Shown in pieces: positions 2,066 through 63,074 of a stretch of DNA of 64,000 nt. Origin of the DNA: Levilactobacillus lanxiensis (GTDB lineage Bacteria > Bacillota > Bacilli > Lactobacillales > Lactobacillaceae). The position numbers were made by a program, and so were the translations under genes. The stretch lies in NCBI RefSeq assembly GCF_016861655.1, contig NZ_BOLN01000001.1:62001-126000 (forward strand). Direction: 5' to 3'. Position 1 is the first letter of the stretch; each line of letters opens with the position of its first letter. A model generated the notes under the pieces. It saw only the letters and a list, made by a program, of their open reading frames with translations. It had not been told where the DNA came from and made no database searches.

Positions 2066-2350
2066 CCCTCGCCACAGACCTGGTGAAAAGTACGCTGACG
2101 CATGCGGTAACTTTCCGTTCCCGGCGGTGGGTTCAAAACGCCCTGCTATGGGGTCGGTTCCAGCCTGAGAAACGGGCTTCCACCTCGACTTTGAGCCGAA
2201 GTGCGGTCTCAAAGGTCGTCCCATGCTCTAAGCTGAGAAAAAACCTCAGCTAAGACCATCGACACAGCTGGTCGCCTTGGCCCACCTCTGGTCACTGACA
2301 CTTACCGTGCTGGCGCATTTTCACCAAGCCTGTGCTGACACAGGTTTAAC
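2066..2350 (-). repeat. Structured element, class A, inverted
   Basis: Full-length class A copy read on the minus strand. Its CCGGAGGCGC end is degenerate and faces the galM stop. Core blocks (CAGCTGTGTCGATGG, the CTTTGAGACCGC/GCTCAAAG hairpin, CCCCA(T)AGCAGGGC) are all present. The outer stem reads GGTGGGCCAAGGCG against CGTTTTGAACCCACC. Confidence 0.85.
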
Positions 2351-6616: not shown

Positions 6617-6815
6617 GGCTAAACCAGTGTCAGCCGCAGGTATGGTGAAAATGAGCTCAGCCGTGGGAGTTTTCTTAGCGGTTTACCGCTTAGAAAACTG
6701 CTACCTTTGAGACTCGGGTTAGGAGGCTCAAAGTAAGTCTGGAGACCGCCTTTTGGCTCCAGACGGGCGCCCACAGCGAACCGGTCTCATTTGCACCATG
6801 CCGGAGGCGCTGGCT
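6617..6815 (+). repeat. Structured element, class B
   Basis: Complete copy. P3 reads AGTTTTCTTAGCGG/CCGCTTAGAAAACT, P4 CTTTGAGA/GGCTCAAAG and P5 GTCTGGAG/CTCCAGAC. Terminal arms are weaker than usual (ATGGTGAAAATGAG against CTCATTTGCACCAT). A class A copy follows directly in the same orientation. Confidence 0.88.
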
Positions 6816-6857: not shown

Positions 6858-7048
6858 ACGTCAGTGACCAGAGGCGGGCCAAGCCGCCCAGCTGTGTCGA
6901 TGGACTTAGCTGAGGTTTCTCACTCAGCTTAGCCCATGGGACAACCTTTGAGACCGCACTTCGGCTCAAAGTTGAGGTGGAAGCCCGCTTCTCAGGCTGG
7001 AACCGACCCCACAGCAGGGCCGCTTGAGCCCGCCGTCGGGAACGAAAA
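6858..7048 (+). repeat. Structured element, class A core without its right end
   Basis: Core complete from GTGACCAGAGGCGGGCC to CCGTCGGGAACG. The terminal inverted repeat arm after it is missing. The outer stem is compensated: GGCGGGCCAAGC pairs with GCTTGAGCCCGCC. It ends about 17 bases from the maltose phosphorylase stop. Confidence 0.85.
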
Positions 7049-9475: not shown

Positions 9476-9668
9476 CCGCCTCCGGGACCCTGTAAATGGG
9501 ATCGGAACGCTGTGGGCGAACGCCCGGAGCCAAGGAGCGGTCTCCGTGCTTACTTTGAGCCGCCACAGCGTCTCAAAGATATCAATCTTCTAAGCGGCAA
9601 AGCCACTAAGAAGATTCCCACGGCTGGACCCATTTACAGGCCCCCTGCGGCTAATACTGGTTTAAACA
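9476..9668 (-). repeat. Structured element, class B, inverted
   Basis: Its right end faces the mapA start. The terminal arms are changed on both sides (CCTGTAAATGGG / CCCATTTACAGG instead of the GGTGAAAAT form), a compensated change. P3 is AATCTTCTTAGTGGC / GCCGCTTAGAAGATT, read along the element. Confidence 0.88.
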
Positions 9669-9784: not shown

Positions 9785-9978
9785 CGGTTTAAACCGATGT
9801 TAGCCGTGAGGGTGAGAAAAATGAGCTCAGCCGGGGGATTTACTGAGCGCACTGCTCAGTAAATGGCGACTTTGAGACTCGGTCTAAGAGGCTCAAAGCG
9901 AGCCCGAAGACCGCCCTTCGGCTTCGGGCGTCCTGCCCACAGCGTTCCAGTCTCATTTTTCTCACCCGGTAAGGCGAA
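9785..9978 (+). repeat. Structured element, class B
   Basis: Forms an outward-facing pair with the copy at 9476. Arms GGGTGAGAAAAATGAG / CTCATTTTTCTCACCC are perfect and differ from other copies on both sides. P3 is ATTTACTGAGC/GCTCAGTAAAT and P5 GCCCGAAG/CTTCGGGC, both compensated. It ends 13 bases from the transporter stop. Confidence 0.9.
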
Positions 9979-12583: not shown

Positions 12584-12782
12584 TTCGTTCCCGACGGCGA
12601 ATTCAAGATGCCCTGCTGTGGGGCCCGCCCCCAGCCTGAGAAGCGGTCTGGGGCCTCGCCTTGAAACCTCGCTAAAACCCGCGAGTTTCCAAGGTCGTCC
12701 CGTGCTCTAAGCTGAGGAAATCACTCAGCTAAGACCACCGACACAGCTGACCATCTTGATTCGCCTCTGGTCACTGACATTA
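12584..12782 (-). repeat. Structured element, class A core, inverted
   Basis: Lacks both terminal arms. The P4 stem is rebuilt: CTTGGAAACTCGCG / AGCGAGGTTTCAAG replaces the usual CTTTGAGA/CTCAAAG. The end nearest lacI is the element's right end. Confidence 0.82.
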
Positions 12783-12961: not shown

Positions 12962-13234
12962 TCCACCGGCCGGTGAAAATGCGCCAGCGAGGACAGTATG
13001 AGTGACCAGAGGTGGGGCAAAATGCCCGGCTGTGTCGGTGGCCTTGGCTGGAGTTTTGTTCCAGCCTAGCCCACGGGACAACCTTTGCGACCGCTTTTCA
13101 GGCGCAAAGTTGAGGTGGAAGCCCGTTTCTCAGGCTGGAACCGACCCCATAGCAGGGCGTTTTGAACCCACCGTCGGGAACGCCATTACATGCCCACAGC
13201 GTCACGGCCCATTTTCACCGGCCCGGAGGCAATG
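12962..13234 (+). repeat. Structured element, class A with class B-like right end
   Basis: Complete. Outer stem compensated (GGTGGGGCAAAATGCC / GGCGTTTTGAACCCACC). P3 is CCTTGGCTGG/CCAGCCTAG. The right end GCCCACAGCGTCACGGCCC is the block otherwise seen in class B, so this copy is mosaic. Confidence 0.86.
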
Positions 13235-13345
13235 ACAACGACCAAACACCACCAAGCCAGCGGTCTTGATGAAACAACCTTACCATAGAACCGGCGCCAT
13301 TGAAACTTTTTCCGGGTTGAAATGGTTACGCATTGCCCAGGGCAA

Positions 13346-15492: not shown

Positions 15493-15764
15493 CCGCGCCT
15501 CCGGGCTGGTGAAAATGAGCCTCGTCGCGTCCGTTCCCGGCGGTGAGCTCAAGGCGCCCTGCTGTGGGGCCGGTTCCAGCCGAAGGGCGGGCTTCCACCT
15601 CGACTTTGAGCCACAAAGCGGTCTCAAAGGTCGTCCCATGGGCTAAGCTGAGAAAAATCGCTCAGCTAAGGCCATCGACACAGCCGGTCACCTTGGCTCA
15701 CCTCTGGTCACTGCCACGACTGGCTCATTTCCACCAGCCCTGCGGCTCACACGGATTTGACACG
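15493..15764 (-). repeat. Structured element, class A, inverted
   Basis: Complete, with arms GGGCTGGTGAAAATGAGC / GGCTCATTTCCACCAGCCC. Outer stem compensated (GGTGAGCCAAGGTG / CGCCTTGAGCTCACC). The right end faces the response-regulator start. Confidence 0.9.
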
Positions 15765-19540: not shown

Positions 19541-20152
19541 TTACAAAAATTTAAGTAACTGCGGAATCGTGCCATTTTCTAAAATGATAAAAAGTCCTAG
19601 GCCAATATAGATGGCCGAAATGACCCAACGATTGTAGCGCTCGATGAACTCGCCGACCCCTGGCAGGCAGGAGATTTTCTGCGCCGTGAACACCAGCAAG
19701 TAGATCATGATCAGGAAAACAATCAGCGTCACGATGAGCTGTTGGCGGGTCAGCGTCACAAAGTACGGCACGAACAGTCCGAGGTTGTCCGCCCCACAAC
19801 TTCCGATGGTCACAATGGCCACGGTCTCGGTCAACTTACTGAGGCCCTTGCTGTGCAGGCGTTCCTTCGCTTTGGCCTCCCCGGAGTCTTCAACAAACCA
19901 GACTCGAATCCCAAAGTAGATGGGAATCAATCCCAATAAGCCCAACAACCATTTTTCGGGCACATAGTGCAGTACGAAAGCAAAAAAGAGGCTCATCAAA
20001 ATCAACGCCACGGATCCCAGGTACTGGCCCAGGTAAATATCCAGGTACTGGCGTTTATCTTTGACATGGGCAAAATAAATCAAGAGGATGACAAGCAGGT
20101 CAACGGCGGTGGCGGTATATAACATCACGGCCGTCAGAATGGTCTGAAACAT
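19541..20152 (-). CDS. CadD-family cadmium resistance transporter
   Basis: 203 residues with five or six membrane helices and the family sequence SCGADNLGLFVPYF near residue 118, where Asp and Asn sit in a helix. CadD proteins lower cytoplasmic cadmium; whether this one handles Cd is inferred from family. The track-length start is a GTG lying on the ribosome site; I chose the ATG at 20150-20152, 8 bases after TTGGAG. The ribosome site GGAGTGC is exactly complementary to the loop of the two candidate small RNAs. Confidence 0.85.
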   Translation of the reverse strand: MFQTILTAVMLYTATAVDLLVILLIYFAHVKDKRQYLDIYLGQYLGSVALILMSLFFAFVLHYVPEKWLLGLLGLIPIYFGIRVWFVEDSGEAKAKERLHSKGLSKLTETVAIVTIGSCGADNLGLFVPYFVTLTRQQLIVTLIVFLIMIYLLVFTAQKISCLPGVGEFIERYNRWVISAIYIGLGLFIILENGTIPQLLKFL

Positions 20153-20263
20153 GACGGGCACTCCAATCTGTAGTGAAAGCTCTTACAATTGCAGTGTATC
20201 ACATTTTCCGTCCCCGACAAGTAGGCAATTCCCTAACGACGGGAAATGGTGAAAAATGGAAAC

Positions 20264-20308: not shown

Positions 20309-20390
20309 GATTGCATTGTATTTTATTGATTAAGTGTCGCGTCGCCAAACAATGTTTGTTAGACACACGAAAGCCGACTACAGCCGATCA

Positions 20391-20588
20391 CGAATCAAAC
20401 CAGTGTCAGCCGCAGGGCTGGTGAAAATGGGCTCAGCCGTGGGAGTTGCCTTAGCGGGTTCCCCGCTTAGACAACTGCTATCTTTGAGACGTGGTTTTCG
20501 GCTCAAAGTAAGTCTGGAGACCGCCCTTCGGCTCCAGACGTGCGCCCACAGCGTCACGGCCCATTTTCACCAGCCCGGAGGCGCCAAC
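20391..20588 (+). repeat. Structured element, class B (type copy)
   Basis: Best-preserved copy. Perfect 17-base arms GGCTGGTGAAAATGGGC / GCCCATTTTCACCAGCC, inner P2 CCGTGGG/CCCACAG, and three hairpins: P3 AGTTGCCTTAGCGG, P4 CTTTGAGA...CTCAAAG and P5 GTCTGGAG/CTCCAGAC. Ends 12 bases from the antiporter stop. Confidence 0.92.
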
Positions 20589-20599
20589 AAAAGCTCGTT

Positions 20600-21796
20600 T
20601 TATTCGGACGGGCGGACTTTGGAGCGGTCGACTTCCCCATGGTGCACGCGGTCCATCGTCCACCGCAACAGGAACGGTGCCAACAGCGTCGCGATAATGA
20701 TGGCCGCCACGATTGCTGAGTACCGAACGGGTGACATCAGCTTAGCCGCGTACCCGATTTGTGCGATGATTAAAGCCATTTCACCCCGAGAGACCATCCC
20801 GGCGCCCACTGCGGCGGAACTGCCCCAGGAGAAGCCGGCCATTTTGGCCCCACTCCCGGCACCAATCAACTTGGACAGAACGGCCACGGCCGTCAGGACT
20901 AGGATGAACCCAATCTGTTTGCCCAACCCATTAAAGTCCATGTTCAGCCCAATGCTGACAAAGAATACGGGGATGAACAATGCGTAGCCAACTGGCTCAA
21001 TGTGCCGGTCGACCGTGGAGCGCGCCGTCGTTTGGGAAATAGCGATACCGGCAAAGAAGGCCCCGACCACGTCGCTTAAGCCAACGAGTTCGGCTACGTA
21101 AGCCATCCCGAAACACAGGATGATGGCCATCAGTGTTGGGCCCATTGGAATCAACAGGCGTTCACCAATTTTAGCCATGTAAGGCGCTAACCAGCGGACC
21201 ACAAAGTAAATGGCCGCAAAGTAAATCACCTGTTCAATCGTGGTTAGTAAGAGGCTGCTAGACTGCGCGGCGCTCTCACCAACGGCGGTTCCGGTCGTGC
21301 TGACCAACACACTTAAAATCACAACGGCCAGCACGTCATCAACCACGGCGGCCCCCAGAATCGTGGTCCCCTCGCGGCTATTTAACGCGTTCATTTCCTT
21401 TAAGACTTCCACGGAAATTGAAACGGAGGTCGCGGCGAAAATCACACTGATGAATAAACTTTCCGTGACGCCCAGGTTGTAAAACATCCCCACGGCGTAC
21501 GTCCCCAACACGGGAATCAGGACCCCCATGAGGGCGACCAACACGCTGGGTTTCAGGTAGCGTTTCAACAGTTGTAAATCACTTTCGAGTCCGGCGATGA
21601 ACATCAGGATGATGACCCCGATTTCCGCAAAGCCTTCCAGTGAGTGGCTGAGTGAGATCCAGCCCAACATGGCCGGTCCCACTAGGACCCCCACTAACAG
21701 TTGGCCGATGACGGCCGGAATCCCGATACGGGTACAGTAGTGTCCCACCACGGTTGTTGCCAATAAGATTAACGTTAAGTCTTTTAATAGTTCCAC
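20600..21796 (-). CDS. CPA2-family monovalent cation/proton antiporter
   Basis: 398 residues with 12-13 hydrophobic helices. IGIPAVIGQLLVGVLVGPAMLGW and FIAGLESDLQLLKRYLKPS are typical of CPA2 (NapA/KefB) exchangers, and VVDDVLAVVIL contains the transport-site aspartate pair. No C-terminal RCK domain, so it resembles NapA. The GTG at 21794-21796 sits behind GGGAGGA; longer readings start in the attenuator. Ion (Na+ or K+) cannot be read from sequence. The leader contains an upstream ORF and terminator. Confidence 0.9.
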   Translation of the reverse strand: MELLKDLTLILLATTVVGHYCTRIGIPAVIGQLLVGVLVGPAMLGWISLSHSLEGFAEIGVIILMFIAGLESDLQLLKRYLKPSVLVALMGVLIPVLGTYAVGMFYNLGVTESLFISVIFAATSVSISVEVLKEMNALNSREGTTILGAAVVDDVLAVVILSVLVSTTGTAVGESAAQSSSLLLTTIEQVIYFAAIYFVVRWLAPYMAKIGERLLIPMGPTLMAIILCFGMAYVAELVGLSDVVGAFFAGIAISQTTARSTVDRHIEPVGYALFIPVFFVSIGLNMDFNGLGKQIGFILVLTAVAVLSKLIGAGSGAKMAGFSWGSSAAVGAGMVSRGEMALIIAQIGYAAKLMSPVRYSAIVAAIIIATLLAPFLLRWTMDRVHHGEVDRSKVRPSE

Positions 21797-21939
21797 AAGT
21801 TTCCTCCCTCGCACGAAAAAAGCGACCGCCTCAAAACGGTCCCCCCAACCCAAGGAGGACGCTGTTCTTGAAAGCAATCGCTTCAACCATCTCTAATTCA
21901 TATTTCATACAGTATACTAGAAAACGCCACCAATCGCAA
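21797..21939 (-). promoter_or_regulatory. Antiporter promoter and attenuator-like leader
   Basis: Promoter: TTGCGA (reverse of 21934-21939), 17 bases, TATACT (reverse of 21911-21916). The leader RNA can form either GUCCUCC/GGGGGGAC, or a terminator GACCG/CGGUC plus U6 (21816-21843). The two share the GGGGGGACCG block and exclude each other. A 19-codon ORF ends in the terminator stem. Confidence 0.55.
21831..21890 (-). CDS. Possible leader peptide, 19 codons
   Basis: ATG at 21888-21890, TGA at 21831-21833, encoding MVEAIAFKNSVLLGLGGPF. The last codons (Gly-Gly-Pro-Phe-stop) lie on the left arm of the attenuator terminator, so a paused or fast ribosome there would decide which hairpin forms. 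The ribosome site is weak (TTAGAG). Inference only; it could be chance. Confidence 0.35.
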   Translation of the reverse strand: MVEAIAFKNSVLLGLGGPF

Positions 21940-23127: not shown

Positions 23128-23396
23128 CGGGTCAAACCCGTGTCAGCCACGGAGCTGGGAAAACTGGACCCAACTAGGTCGTTGTTAGTGACCAGAGGCA
23201 GATCAAAGTGACCGGCTGTGTCGGTGGTCTTGGCTGGAGTTTTGTTCCAGCCTAGCCCACGGGGCAACCTTTGAGACCGCACTCTGGCTCAAAGTTGAGG
23301 TGGAAGCCCGCCCTTCGGCTGTAACCGACCCCATAGCCGGGCACTTTGAATCTGCCACCGGGAACGAAAACCACCACGACTAGGCTCGGTTTTAAC
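23128..23396 (+). repeat. Structured element, class A, degraded right end
   Basis: Core complete; P3 is TCTTGGCTGG/CCAGCCTAG. The left end CGTGTCAGCC is present, but the right arm has decayed to TAGGCTCGGTTTTAACCC. It abuts the stop of the secreted-protein gene at 23400. Confidence 0.83.
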
Positions 23397-39971: not shown

Positions 39972-40166
39972 AGTCTTGTCGCAGGGCTGGTGAAAATGAG
40001 TTTAGCCGTGGGAGTTGCCTTAGTGGTGCTAACCACTTAGGCAACTGATATCTTTGAGACGCATCTTTTTGCGGCTCAAAGTAAGGTTGGCGACCGCTCT
40101 TTGGCGCCAACCGTTCGCCCACAGCGTTCCGACTCATTTTCACCAGCCCGGAGACACTGACAACGC
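39972..40166 (+). repeat. Structured element, class B
   Basis: Arms GGGCTGGTGAAAATGAG / CTCATTTTCACCAGCCC are perfect. P3 is AGTTGCCTTAGTGG/CCACTTAGGCAACT and P5 GGTTGGCG/CGCCAACC, both compensated against other copies. The right end faces luxS. Confidence 0.9.
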
Positions 40167-40875: not shown

Positions 40876-41013
40876 ACTTGCCTCCGGCATGGTGAAAATG
40901 GGCCGGAACACGGTGAAGTCCGTTCCCGACGGCAGATTCAAGGTGCCCTGGTCACTAACCGCAACCTAGTTGGCCATTTTCACCATACCTGCGGCTAACA
41001 GTGGCTTAACCCA
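40876..41013 (-). repeat. Structured element, class A, internally deleted
   Basis: Both terminal arms are intact (GGCATGGTGAAAATGGGCC / GGCCATTTTCACCATACC), but about 130 bases of the core are lost. The junction GCCCTGGTCACT joins ...GCCCTG to TGGTCACT... at a CTG microhomology. Confidence 0.8.
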
Positions 41014-41244: not shown

Positions 41245-41444
41245 GGGCTAAGTCTATGTGAGCCGCAGGGTGGGTGAAAATGGGGCCAGCCGTGGGAATT
41301 TCCTTAGCGGTTTTACCGCTTAGGAAATTGCTATCTTTGAGACGCGTTTCTCAGCGGCCCAAAGTAAGGCTGGAGACCGTCCTTTGGCTCCAGCCGTGCG
41401 CCCACAGCGTTCCGCTCCCATTTTCACCCACCCTGCGGCGCTGC
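41245..41444 (+). repeat. Structured element, class B
   Basis: Arms GGGTGGGTGAAAATGGG / CCCATTTTCACCCACCC are changed on both sides. P3 is AATTTCCTTAGCGG/CCGCTTAGGAAATT, also compensated. The right end faces the LCP gene start. Confidence 0.9.
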
Positions 41445-42693: not shown

Positions 42694-43027
42694 CCAAGAG
42701 CGACCAGAAGCGGGTCAAGGTTCCCCGCTGTGTCGATGGCGCTAGCTACATAATTGATTAGCCATTCACAACTAAGTTCAGTTGGACACCACACAGCCTA
42801 CTCGGGTTTAAACCAGAAGTTTGGTAAAAATCAATCGTAGCCGCAGGAAGCCAGGGATGGAGCCAGCTGTGTCGATGGCGTTAGTTACCGTTTTTGAGGT
42901 AACTTACACCATGGGACGACTTTGGAGCCTGGCTGGTCCTGCCAGGCTTCAAAGCGAGCCGGAAGACCGCCTTTTGGCTGGAGGCGGGCCCCACAGCAGG
43001 TGGAATCCCTGGAAGCCGGAGGCGGTT
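42694..43027 (+). repeat. Degenerate structured element, class A/B chimera
   Basis: A class A fragment at 42699-42765 (GACCAGAAGCGGGTCAAGG...CTGTGTCGATGGCGCTAGCT). Then at 42836-43025 a shortened copy with class A start (CAGCTGTGTCGATGGCG), rebuilt P3 (AGTTACC/GGTAACT) and class B-like P5 (GAAGACCGCCTTTTGGCTGG). Arms are reduced to CCAGGGAT/ATCCCTGG. Ends 13 bases from the next stop codon. Confidence 0.65.
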
Positions 43028-44924: not shown

Positions 44925-45220
44925 GGTAAACCCACGTCAGCCGCAGGGCTGGTGAAAATGGGCTGACTAGGCCAGTGTGAGTGACCAGAGGCAGATCAAG
45001 GTGACCAGCTGTGTCGGTGGTCTTGGCCGGCGTTTTTTGCCGGCCTAGAGCACGGGACGGCCTTGGAAACTCGCGATTTTCAGCGAGGTTTCAAGCCGAG
45101 CTGGAAGACCGCCCCTCAGGCTGGAAGCGTGCCCCACAGCAGGGCACCTTGAAGCTGCCGCCGGGAACGGCGCCCACAGCGTCACGGCCCATTTTCACCA
45201 GTCCGGAGGCGCTGACAACG
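44925..45220 (+). repeat. Structured element, class A, mosaic right end
   Basis: P3 TCTTGGCCGG/CCGGCCTAGA and P4 CTTGGAAACTCGC / GCGAGGTTTCAAG are compensated. The right end GCCCACAGCGTCACGGCCC is the class B block. Outermost pairing GTCAGC/GCTGAC is intact. Ends about 7-14 bases from the cstR-like stop. Confidence 0.9.
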
Positions 45221-48044: not shown

Positions 48045-48334
48045 TCTTGCGCCTCCGGGCCGGTGAAAATTGAGCCGTGACGTGGTAGTTGGCCGTTCCC
48101 GGCGGCGGATTCAAGGTGCCCTGCTGTGGGGTCGGTTCCAGCCTGAAGAACAGGCTTCCACCTCGACTTTGAGCCAAAGAGCGGTCTCAAAGATCGTCCC
48201 ATGCTCTAAGCTGAGTGAAAAACCTCAGCTAAGACCATCGACACAGCTGGTCACCTTGATCCGCCTCTGGTCACTAACATCTACCTAGCCCGCCCATTTT
48301 CATCAACCCTACGGCTTAGACTAGCTTAGCCCGT
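48045..48334 (-). repeat. Structured element, class A, inverted
   Basis: Complete; the left arm is altered (CCCATTTTCATCAACCC). Outer stem GGCGGATCAAGGTG / CACCTTGAATCCGCC is the best preserved. Both flanking genes are leftward; the right end faces the small-RNA terminator. Confidence 0.88.
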
Positions 48335-50111: not shown

Positions 50112-50228
50112 CGGGCTTAACCTGTGTCAGCCGCAGGGTCGGTGAAAATGAGCCAGCGTGGACAGTATCAGTGACCAGAGGCGGATCAAGGCGCCCAGCT
50201 GTGTCGATGGTCTTAGCTGAGGTTCTCT
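50112..50228 (+). repeat. Structured element, class A, truncated
   Basis: Only the left part, from GTGTCAGCCGCAGGG to the P3 start CTTAGCTGAGG. With about 35 bases of preceding flank it is repeated at 50272 (period 170), so a duplication joined it to a class B copy. Confidence 0.82.
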
Positions 50229-50271
50229 CCACTGTTTGACCATATCGATCACCATTAGTTAAAACCCACCT

Positions 50272-50476
50272 GGACTACACGCGGGTTTAACCAGTGTCAG
50301 CCGCAGGGTCGGTGAAAATGAGCTCAGCCGTGGGAGTTGCCTTAGCGGTTTACCGCTTAGACAACTGCTATCTTTGAGACGTGGTCTTCGGCTCAAAGTA
50401 AGCCAGGAGACCGTCTTTTGGCTCCGGGCGTGCGCCCACAGCGTCCCGGCTCAGTTTTCACCGACCCGGAGGCGAA
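50272..50476 (+). repeat. Structured element, class B
   Basis: Complete. Arms GGGTCGGTGAAAATGAGC / GCTCAGTTTTCACCGACCC. P3 AGTTGCCTTAGCGG. The right end lies 14 bases from the DegV-family stop. Confidence 0.9.
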
Positions 50477-54148: not shown

Positions 54149-54394
54149 CGGGTTAAGCCTGTGTCAGCCGAGGAGCTGGTGAAAATGGTCCCCACCATGG
54201 CCAGTATCAGTGACCAGAGGCGGATCAAGGTGACCAGCTGTGTCGATGACCTTAGCTGAGGTTTTTCACTCAGCTTAGCTCATGGGACGACCTTTGAGAC
54301 CGACCTTTGGCTAAAAGTCGAGGTGGAAGCCCGCTCCTCAGGCTGGAACCGGCCCCACAGCAGGGCACCTTGAATCCGCCGTCGGGAACGGCAA
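54149..54394 (+). repeat. Structured element, class A, right arm missing
   Basis: Left arm GAGCTGGTGAAAATGG and the full core through CCGTCGGGAACGG; it stops there, about 16 bases from the SDR stop codon. Confidence 0.87.
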
Positions 54395-58686: not shown

Positions 58687-58805
58687 TGTCATTCCCCTTT
58701 TTGTTTTAATTTTACCATTAAAAAAGCGCGTCGGCTAACTTGCCCACTCGTCTAGGCCAATCTGTTACCAATTTGTCACATTTCTCCGATAGATTGACGT
58801 AAATT

Positions 58806-58998
58806 GTCGCCTGCGGCTGCCAGGAGCTCCGCCTGCTGTGGGGTCGGTTCCAGCCTAAGAAGCGGGCTTCCACCTCGACTTTGAGCCACAAAACCCGCGT
58901 CTCAAAGTTCGCCCCGCGCTGTAGGCCGGGAAAGAACCCCGACCAACACCGCCGACACAGCTGGCTCCGTCCTGGCCTCCTCCGGCTAAAATTAGCCG
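58806..58998 (-). repeat. Structured element, class A, inverted, divergent
   Basis: Recognisable by CTGCTGTGGGG, CCAGCC, CCACCTCGACTTTGAG and GACACAGCTGG. P3 and P4 are partly rebuilt (GGCCGGG.../CCCCGACC). Both ends are eroded. It is followed by a class B copy in the same orientation. Confidence 0.72.
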
Positions 58999-59052: not shown

Positions 59053-59235
59053 TGTGCCTTGCCGGGCGGAACGCGGTGGGCGGCCGTCTGAAGCCAAAGA
59101 GCGGTCTTCAGACTTACTTTGAACCGCTAAGACCCGCGTTTCAAAGATACCAATTCCCTAAGTGGCACCCGAACCGTGCCACTTAGGGAATTCCCGCGGC
59201 TGACGCCATTGACGTTGCCCTATCGGCTGACATAA
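59053..59235 (-). repeat. Structured element, class B, inverted, eroded ends
   Basis: P3 AATTCCCTAAGTGGCA / TGCCACTTAGGGAATT is the longest of all copies. P5 GTCTGAAG/CTTCAGAC. The terminal arms have decayed. Confidence 0.8.
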
Positions 59236-59387: not shown

Positions 59388-59574
59388 TCCACATCAGCCG
59401 TGAGGGCAGTGAGAATAGGCTCAGCCGTGGGAGTTGTCTTAGCGGTTTACCGCTTAGACAACTGGTATCTTTGAGACACACTTTTCGGCTCAAAGTAAGC
59501 TGGAAAACCGCTCTATAGCTTCCGGCGTCCGCCCACAGCGTCACGGCCTATTTTCACTGCCCGGTAAGGCGGCA
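59388..59574 (+). repeat. Structured element, class B
   Basis: Arms GGGCAGTGAGAATAGG / CCTATTTTCACTGCCC with one mismatch; P5 GCTGGAA/TTCCGGC keeps pairing through a G-U. The right end faces the ndh stop. Confidence 0.88.
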
Positions 59575-62875: not shown

Positions 62876-63074
62876 TTAAATCCCTGTAAGCCGTGAGGGT
62901 GGCGAAAATAGGCTCAGCAGTGGGAATGGACTTACCGATGATTCGTGCCGGTTAGTCCATTGGTATCTTTGAGACTCGCCTTTCGAGGCTCAAAGTAAGG
63001 CTGAAGACCGCCTTTTGGCTTCAGCCGTCCGCCCACCGCGTTCCGACCTATTTTTGCCACCCGGTAAGGCGCAG
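62876..63074 (+). repeat. Structured element, class B
   Basis: P3 AATGGACTTACCG/CGGTTAGTCCATT and P5 GGCTGAAG/CTTCAGCC are compensated; arms GGGTGGCGAAAATAGG / CCTATTTTTGCCACCC. It lies 76 bases before the response-regulator start, inside its promoter region. Confidence 0.9.

Follow-up and report, generated by a model that had tools for sequence, protein, structure and literature searches.

A family of folded intergenic repeats with a four-way core in Levilactobacillus lanxiensis and other lactobacilli

We found that a non-coding element of about 215 nt, at positions 20391-20606 of a 64-kb stretch of the Levilactobacillus lanxiensis genome (the window, by which we mean the whole stretch of DNA that was analysed), consists of a four-way (cloverleaf) core on a terminal stem and belongs to a superfamily of folded repeats that is apparently undescribed. 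Judging from aligned copies alone, the fold is retained by compensated base changes across species and in one further genus. We tentatively read it, with slightly less than even confidence, as a structured element that is selfish or quasi-neutral, is under selection for its plus-strand fold and turns over by template switching and ectopic copying.

The element and its fold

The element is intergenic, lying between a CadD-type transporter gene (19541-20161, minus strand) and a cation:proton antiporter gene (20600-21886, minus strand), the closest named relatives of the latter being those of L. mulengensis and L. wangkuiensis (99%). An initial annotation had placed the limits of the element at 20391-20588, which is too short, since in sequence and folds the outer stem extends to 20606: bases 20391-20400 pair with 20597-20606, crossing the stop codon of the antiporter gene, and the last ten bases of the 5' flank zone (F), CGAATCAAAC, pair with GTTTTATTCG. 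The stem P2, which had been given as CCGTGGG/CCCACAG, is real, but has to be corrected to GC-C-GTGGG/CCCAC-A-GC, with a C.A mismatch in 72 of 88 class B copies. Compared with dinucleotide shuffles, the fold of 20391-20600 had z scores of -7.1 (plus strand) and -8.8 (minus strand), with none of 200 shuffles equalling it, and the plus-strand segment 20378-20615 also beat its shuffles, both when folded as RNA and when folded as DNA. The parts of the element and the other core matches in the window are given in Table 1, where D is the 3' flank and R1 is a covariance model built from 25 class B copies of the same genome, including the ten of the window.

Table 1. Parts of the element at 20391-20606 and further core matches in the window
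Feature	Position	Strand	Basis
Whole class B element, outer stem included	20391..20606	+	copy alignment, folds, R1 178.4 bits
5' flank zone F, left limit approximate	20365..20400	+	sequence; family-wide F-D complementarity
3' flank D, holding TTA, the stop codon of the minus-strand antiporter gene	20597..20606	+	sequence, ORF list
P1 5' strand, 18 bp, perfect	20415..20432	+	sequence, fold
P1 3' strand	20559..20576	+	sequence, fold
P2 5' strand, C.A mismatch inside	20436..20443	+	covariation tables
P2 3' strand	20545..20552	+	covariation tables
P3 hairpin, strong covariation, U.U mismatch common	20444..20476	+	pair tables, covariation test
P4 hairpin CTTTGAG-A-C...G-G-CTCAAAG, sequence mostly conserved, A.G mismatch	20482..20508	+	pair tables, covariation test
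P5 hairpin, strong covariation, conserved end AGACCG...GGCT	20512..20539	+	pair tables, alignment, covariation test
Class B core	6658..6778	+	profile match
Class B core	9508..9626	-	profile match
Class B core	9828..9944	+	profile match
Class B core	40004..40126	+	profile match
Class B core	41287..41409	+	profile match
Class B core, second in tandem	50325..50443	+	profile match
Class B core; orthologous place in G016 without core and arms, no clear repeat	59072..59202	-	profile match, comparison
Class B core	59422..59540	+	profile match
Class B core	62915..63040	+	profile match
Class A core	2116..2296	-	profile match
Class A core	6863..7044	+	profile match
Class A core	12586..12775	-	profile match
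Class A core, then class B type 3' arm (13190-13238); class B here in L080 and L081	13001..13182	+	profile match, locus comparison
Class A core	15532..15712	-	profile match
Class A core; A + B tandem at the same site in L081	16500..16682	+	profile match, locus comparison
Class A core	23187..23366	+	profile match
A-like core with other arms (third class), preceded by truncated A piece (42699-42747)	42859..43024	+	profile match
Class A core joined to a 3' arm of class B type (45170-45218)	44980..45169	+	profile match
Class A core	48094..48275	-	profile match
Class A core ending in P3, then own 5' flank repeated and full class B	50170..50231	+	profile match
Class A core	54209..54390	+	profile match
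A-like core with other arms (third class)	58803..58989	-	profile match

Covariation was assessed in an alignment of 36 class B copies, which had not been fitted to the structure and which came from 11 genomes of the Levilactobacillus group and one genome of another genus. The alignment comprised the ten window copies, 21 R1 matches from named loci (the best 22, less one near-identical tandem copy) and five strong matches from the other genus. Standard pairs filled 97.2% of the 1309 cells, compared with 32-47% for slid structures, and double changes occurred at 23 of the 37 pairs (164 cells), with none of 500 shuffles reaching any of these measures. A lack of covariation above background in a larger alignment, the outcome named in advance as refuting the fold, was therefore not what these copies from 12 genomes gave. 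Double changes were found at 11 of 12 pairs in P3 and 7 of 10 in P5, the two hairpins for which paired change had been described, and at 3 of 7 pairs in P2 and 2 of 8 in P4. The proposed cloverleaf with compensated changes holds as an overall fold, but P4 covaries little and is mostly conserved in sequence. Among the 88 class B and 123 class A copies compared in three genomes, some pairs take all four Watson-Crick forms, class A having been assessed in pair tables only, without shuffle and slide controls. In addition, all 88 class B copies, and every class A copy that could be scored (122 of the 123), retained an A.G mismatch in P4, and a U.U mismatch in P3 was present in 72 of the 88 and 118 of the 123 copies, respectively.

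Only full pairs of site-matched orthologs that reached 90% identity were used, the others being dropped; there were 16 of them, with 661 base pairs. Double changes between these orthologs numbered five that were Watson-Crick and four that were not Watson-Crick on both sides, with 0.61 double changes of any kind expected under independence, and single changes comprised 12 between Watson-Crick and G.U, 4 between Watson-Crick and A.C and 6 of other kinds. Divergence was 0.030 at paired bases and 0.066 at unpaired bases. Covariation and ortholog changes together support the earlier suggestion of selection on a folded form of RNA or DNA, with the two forms, RNA and single-stranded DNA, being indistinguishable by these tests.

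The covariation evidence has to be taken with caution, because template switching in replication alone can yield compensated changes; in the available part of PMC8794818, template switching at inverted repeats is documented as a source of both stems and compensated changes. The fold may then not be under selection at all, the compensated changes and the outer stem being mere by-products of switching at inverted repeats, a process that predicts compensated changes made in one step and stems growing into the flanks, as seen in F and D. However, the P4 and P3 mismatches that such a process would mend persist, P4 stays mostly conserved, the junctions and the end of P5 are conserved across genera, and orthologs show the excess of G.U over A.C given above, leaving this explanation highly improbable in our judgement. 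Constraint on mismatches and loops opposes its pure form, but template switching may still supply many of the changes.

The plus strand is likely, but not proven, to be the strand whose fold is selected. Consensus folds had energies of -62.1 (plus) versus -33.1 kcal/mol (minus) in class A and -61.5 versus -54.9 kcal/mol in class B, and the single changes between orthologs favour the plus strand. Filtered sums of G.U to A.C were 72:30 in class B and 214:63 in class A, omitting recurrent C.A columns (P2 of class B; P3a and the end of P4 in class A) as well as the P5a pairs of class A, which are uncertain. The raw totals of the large set, by contrast with the filtered ones, showed no plus-strand excess (72 G.U versus 103 A.C in class B, 217 versus 234 in class A), and the single copy 20391-20600 was more stable on the minus strand (-113.1 versus -102.5), which counts against the plus-strand reading.

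Distribution, position and turnover

The ten class B copies named in the initial annotation are all present in the window, scoring 115-178 bits with R1, but the family is larger, with two profile models revealing 23 core matches, ten of class B and 13 A-type, some of them truncated. Class A has the same plan as class B with a longer P2, and A variants with other arms represent at least a third class. Twelve A-type copies scored 24-46 bits with R1, and six weaker matches (E >= 0.005) included five that were the P3 hairpin on the opposite strand. A minus-strand remnant at 40880-41007, with both arms and almost no core, resembles the core-deleted copies seen between species.

In the genome of L. 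lanxiensis itself (G000), at least 150 R1 matches were found, together with 278 exact P4 motifs, compared with 0 for the reversed control. A portion of 506 kb contained 156 copies and 78 P4 motifs, corresponding to about 556 copies genome-wide, or 934 by density; with the density estimate tempered by the motif count, the copy number is roughly 550-900. R1 matches were present in 33 of 35 genomes of the genus (E <= 0.001, own genome counted), with G012 and G024 giving none at this threshold among 86 candidates scored in each. Across the family, in a survey that scored only the best ten or fewer candidates per genome, matches were found in 76 of 301 genomes and 13 of 40 Lactobacillaceae genera (E <= 1e-5, own genome counted). 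No R1 match at E <= 0.001 was found in loci of 14-21 kb from L. brevis ATCC 14869, L. parabrevis and several others, and two blastn queries, one from each of classes A and B, had no match among plasmid and phage records. In IMG/VR, 22 contigs contained the P4 motif; real copies were found in one, and the others had no R1 match passing E = 0.1. This contig (L230, UViG_2886212900_000003) carries a class B copy of 175.6 bits and a weaker copy, prophage and host flank not being distinguished. Past the antiporter gene, L. cerevisiae has a tandem of two near-identical class B copies spaced 250 nt apart (L085, 11317-11716), and L. hammesii has a distinct tandem repeat family (GAGCATTAACG...TTAAG, with CCCGGG inside) at about 11342-11800 of L094.

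In 344 kb of G000, 115 of 119 core matches could be placed between genes called from the longest ORFs, and two lay inside ORFs. The gene on the 3' side is near, with a median distance of 64.5 to 182 nt from the core depending on context (about 50 nt of which is arm), and the gene on the 5' side is far, with a median of 387 to 483 nt. Of the 115 copies, 72 face the end of the 3'-side gene, in a 3' to 3' arrangement, and 43 face its start.

P1 is common to the Levilactobacillus copies, the outermost stem being locus-specific, and in the other genus (loci L176-L178) P1 itself varies from copy to copy and still pairs. When F, 60-70 nt upstream, was compared with the reverse complement of its own D in 124 full copies, the mean score was 19.4, versus 13.0 for shuffled partners (p = 3e-35); these copies are not all independent, because orthologs and tandem members are included. 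A score of at least 18 was reached by 68 copies. In 36 of these the complementary segment runs 6 nt or more into an ORF, in 35 cases at the 3' end of the ORF, and in the best cases the overlap extends over 41-53 nt. Where D is coding, F is taken to be the copy. Differences between the two, in 37 alignments scoring at least 24, comprised 62 one-base gaps in F and 21 in D, besides 146 substitutions. The F zone, about 61-120 nt upstream of the cores, is about 60% A + C next to the element in G000, G016 and G029; this richness extends to about 60 nt from the outer stem and declines towards background farther out. Adenine mutagenesis of F of the type seen in diversity-generating retroelements was rejected, in that A was the base of D altered most, yet C, T and G were altered too often. 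A donor-derived guide sequence is not excluded as the nature of F, but the flanks of tandem copies, which resemble their own locus, count against it.

We compared 64 clusters between G000 and two close species. At 31 sites a single copy faced a single copy; orientation was kept in all 31, and class was kept in 23 and switched in 8, four in each direction. The remaining clusters included 32 with other copy numbers (two without a called partner) and one without anchors. In five aligned switches and one further, the breakpoints lay in the arms or the upstream flank. Tandems are laid out as F, an older copy cut in or after P3, a second F and a complete newer copy. Among 14 full single pairs of the same class, 8 had the ortholog as best match, and some diverged single copies were highly conserved between species, for example with 0.992 identity versus 0.845 for the nearest paralog. 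Over 46 pairs of same-class copies at matched places, some of them partial, median identity was 94% in the core, 87% in the 5' flank and 95% in the 3' flank, which is mostly coding.

Core conservation near that of the 3' flank fits a host role as well. The element might serve the host as a cis-acting RNA at gene ends, where it would protect transcripts, terminate them or exert antisense control, and selection acting on single copies would have spread and maintained it, as the nearness of its 3' end to genes, the 3' to 3' arrangement of 72 of 115 copies and the high conservation of some diverged single copies would suggest. However, classes swap at the same site between close species, the strand that appears to be selected runs antisense to the adjacent gene for the 72 copies in that arrangement, and two genomes of the genus lack an R1 match at E <= 0.001; we think such a role quite unlikely to be the explanation.

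Twelve indel candidates gave two clean presence/absence sites and one probable one, the rest being, by eye, within-copy deletions or tandem changes. At one clean site, flanked on both sides by TTTC, G029 has a class A copy that G000 lacks; at the other, flanked on both sides by TAATTA, G000 has a class B copy that G016 lacks. Both lie just downstream of terminator-like hairpins. The third place is that of the class B copy at 59072-59202 of the window, missing in G016. The direct repeats fit either a transposase or joining at short repeats, and the older state of the sites was not determined. Of six sites initially taken to be empty, five were internal deletions or partial losses. A class A core at 41469-41644 of contig C12 of G016 is missing from G000 (contig C2, 180070) almost exactly at the core edges, with poor arm-like sequence on both sides, representing a bare-core gain or loss.

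Candidate drivers and modes of copying

Terminal inverted repeats, high copy number, intergenic location and direct repeats of 4 and 6 bp downstream of terminator-like hairpins at the two clean sites are all compatible with a classical MITE, a non-autonomous DNA transposon on whose terminal stem the transposase of an insertion sequence (IS) acts in trans. The repeats are, however, of unequal length, with none clearly at the third site; the outermost bases are locus-specific, and in the other genus even P1 varies per copy; class B matches are not AT-rich, with a GC content of 0.51-0.58; and the plasmid and phage records gave no blastn match to the class A and class B queries. A parental IS, a defining feature of MITEs, was sought in 1.36 Mb from three genomes, and no gene-bearing relative flanked by these arms was found there; five pairs of arms separated by 1.9-4.4 kb are arms of neighbouring copies read on the opposite strand. 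We consider a MITE origin unlikely.

No dedicated recombinase or reverse transcriptase tracking the element was found, only two protein families having been tested. RVT_1 (PF00078) was present in 10 of 35 genomes of the genus. Six of these were among the ten genomes that had over 40 exact P4 motifs, and four among the 25 others, but it was absent from G016 despite the top-scoring copies there; a reverse transcriptase was rejected as driver on this sporadic occurrence, reverse transcriptases outside RVT_1 not being covered. Y1_Tnp (PF01797), found in 23 of 35, was absent from G029, which has top-scoring copies, and from the high-copy G003, and was rejected since it does not track the element. 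At L162 (G000, contig C4, about 76-78 kb) and L154 (G029, contig C22), RVT_1 lies beside a gene for a variable protein and a repeat pair of 99-100 nt, the near-identical members of which are 165 or 162 nt apart and differ mainly at adenines on the sense strand. These loci are diversity-generating retroelements, so the two reverse transcriptases of G000 and G029 belong to such systems.

These results bear on RNA-templated, SINE-like mobility, in which a plus-strand RNA would be reverse-transcribed at the gene-side junction and the end of the cDNA would fold back and copy the flank. A folded plus strand, a fixed 3' junction with a variable and truncated 5' side, and an F that is an error-rich inverted copy of D are consistent with such mobility, but the 25 of 35 genus genomes without an RVT_1 match, G016 among them, and the assignment of two reverse transcriptases to diversity-generating retroelements oppose it, and we rate it very unlikely.

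By inference, and with slightly less than even confidence, copying by host synthesis together with selection on the fold is favoured over a dedicated enzyme, because the searches for a driver, within the two protein families and the 1.36 Mb covered, were negative and template switching is documented. For a structured element turning over in this way, DNA synthesis would be primed at the gene-side (3') junction and would switch template into another copy via the shared arms; its end would then fold back, so that the gene-side flank would be copied in reverse to give the 5' flank F, and the new strand would rejoin upstream of or inside the old copy, with host replication and repair being sufficient for the copying. 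Fold-back copying is inferred from its products, and the many one-base gaps in F, which simple copying does not predict, speak against it. Our guess is that the fold works in the copying of the element itself, its function and its form, RNA or single-stranded DNA, not having been shown. It is possible, but in our view doubtful, that the element is an enzyme-less folded mobile unit, copied beside genes by host DNA synthesis, with an error-rich inverted copy of the gene end as its outer stem and with classes that overwrite one another at fixed addresses via shared arms, which would be a new kind.

Comparison with known systems

In the open-access literature, including the available portions of PMC12306157 and PMC8040213, no description of the element family was found; priority is not certain, because subscription papers were outside the literature search. 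Similarly, Rfam 15 gave no covariance-model match at gathering scores in the 64-kb window and five further loci, and, with the threshold relaxed to E = 10, a single copy from each of classes A and B gave only six implausible matches of unrelated types, far below the cut-offs.

HEARO and omega RNA, like other large structured bacterial RNAs, are tied to mobile DNA; the element is like them in being large and structured and differs in having no Rfam match at gathering scores. REP and BIME, with their RAYT (Y1) transposases, are high-copy folded units that form tandem and head-to-head clusters and have a hairpin of 20-40 nt. The lactobacillus element, in contrast, measures about 215-300 nt and has a four-way core, and Y1_Tnp is absent from G029 and G003, in which copies are top-scoring or many. 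The hairpins produced by template switching also have stems that arise by reverse-complement copying of nearby sequence, with compensated changes, but in the available part of PMC8794818 they are shown in microRNA and rRNA genes, whereas here an interspersed family has a conserved core.

BOX, RUP and SPRITE of Streptococcus pneumoniae, as far as the accessible text of PMC3049150 describes them, are likewise small repeats scattered through intergenic DNA, whose transcripts are predicted to fold; they are over-represented where genes converge and are thought to be mobile. Compensated changes across genera, a locus-specific outer stem and class switching are not mentioned in that portion of the paper, the comparison being by description, with no models compared. 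MITEs, including ERIC, which has 711 copies in Photorhabdus, resemble the element in being short and non-coding, with inverted terminal repeats and a stable transcript fold (PMC10969869, in the part available). The lactobacillus element differs from MITEs in that it is not AT-rich, no parental IS was found in the 1.36 Mb examined, its ends are not constant, and direct duplication was seen at two of three presence/absence sites and with unequal length.

The family provides hundreds of natural replicates for measuring compensated evolution, in which the question of template switching versus selection can be asked directly. Neither inverted, locus-specific copies of gene ends nor the replacement of one class by another at a fixed address is named in the accessible parts of accounts of other bacterial repeats, and the origin of the copies is therefore an open and testable question. 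The nearest kinds are BOX, RUP and SPRITE, on the one hand, and MITEs, on the other, with which the element shares the character of a small structured repeat.
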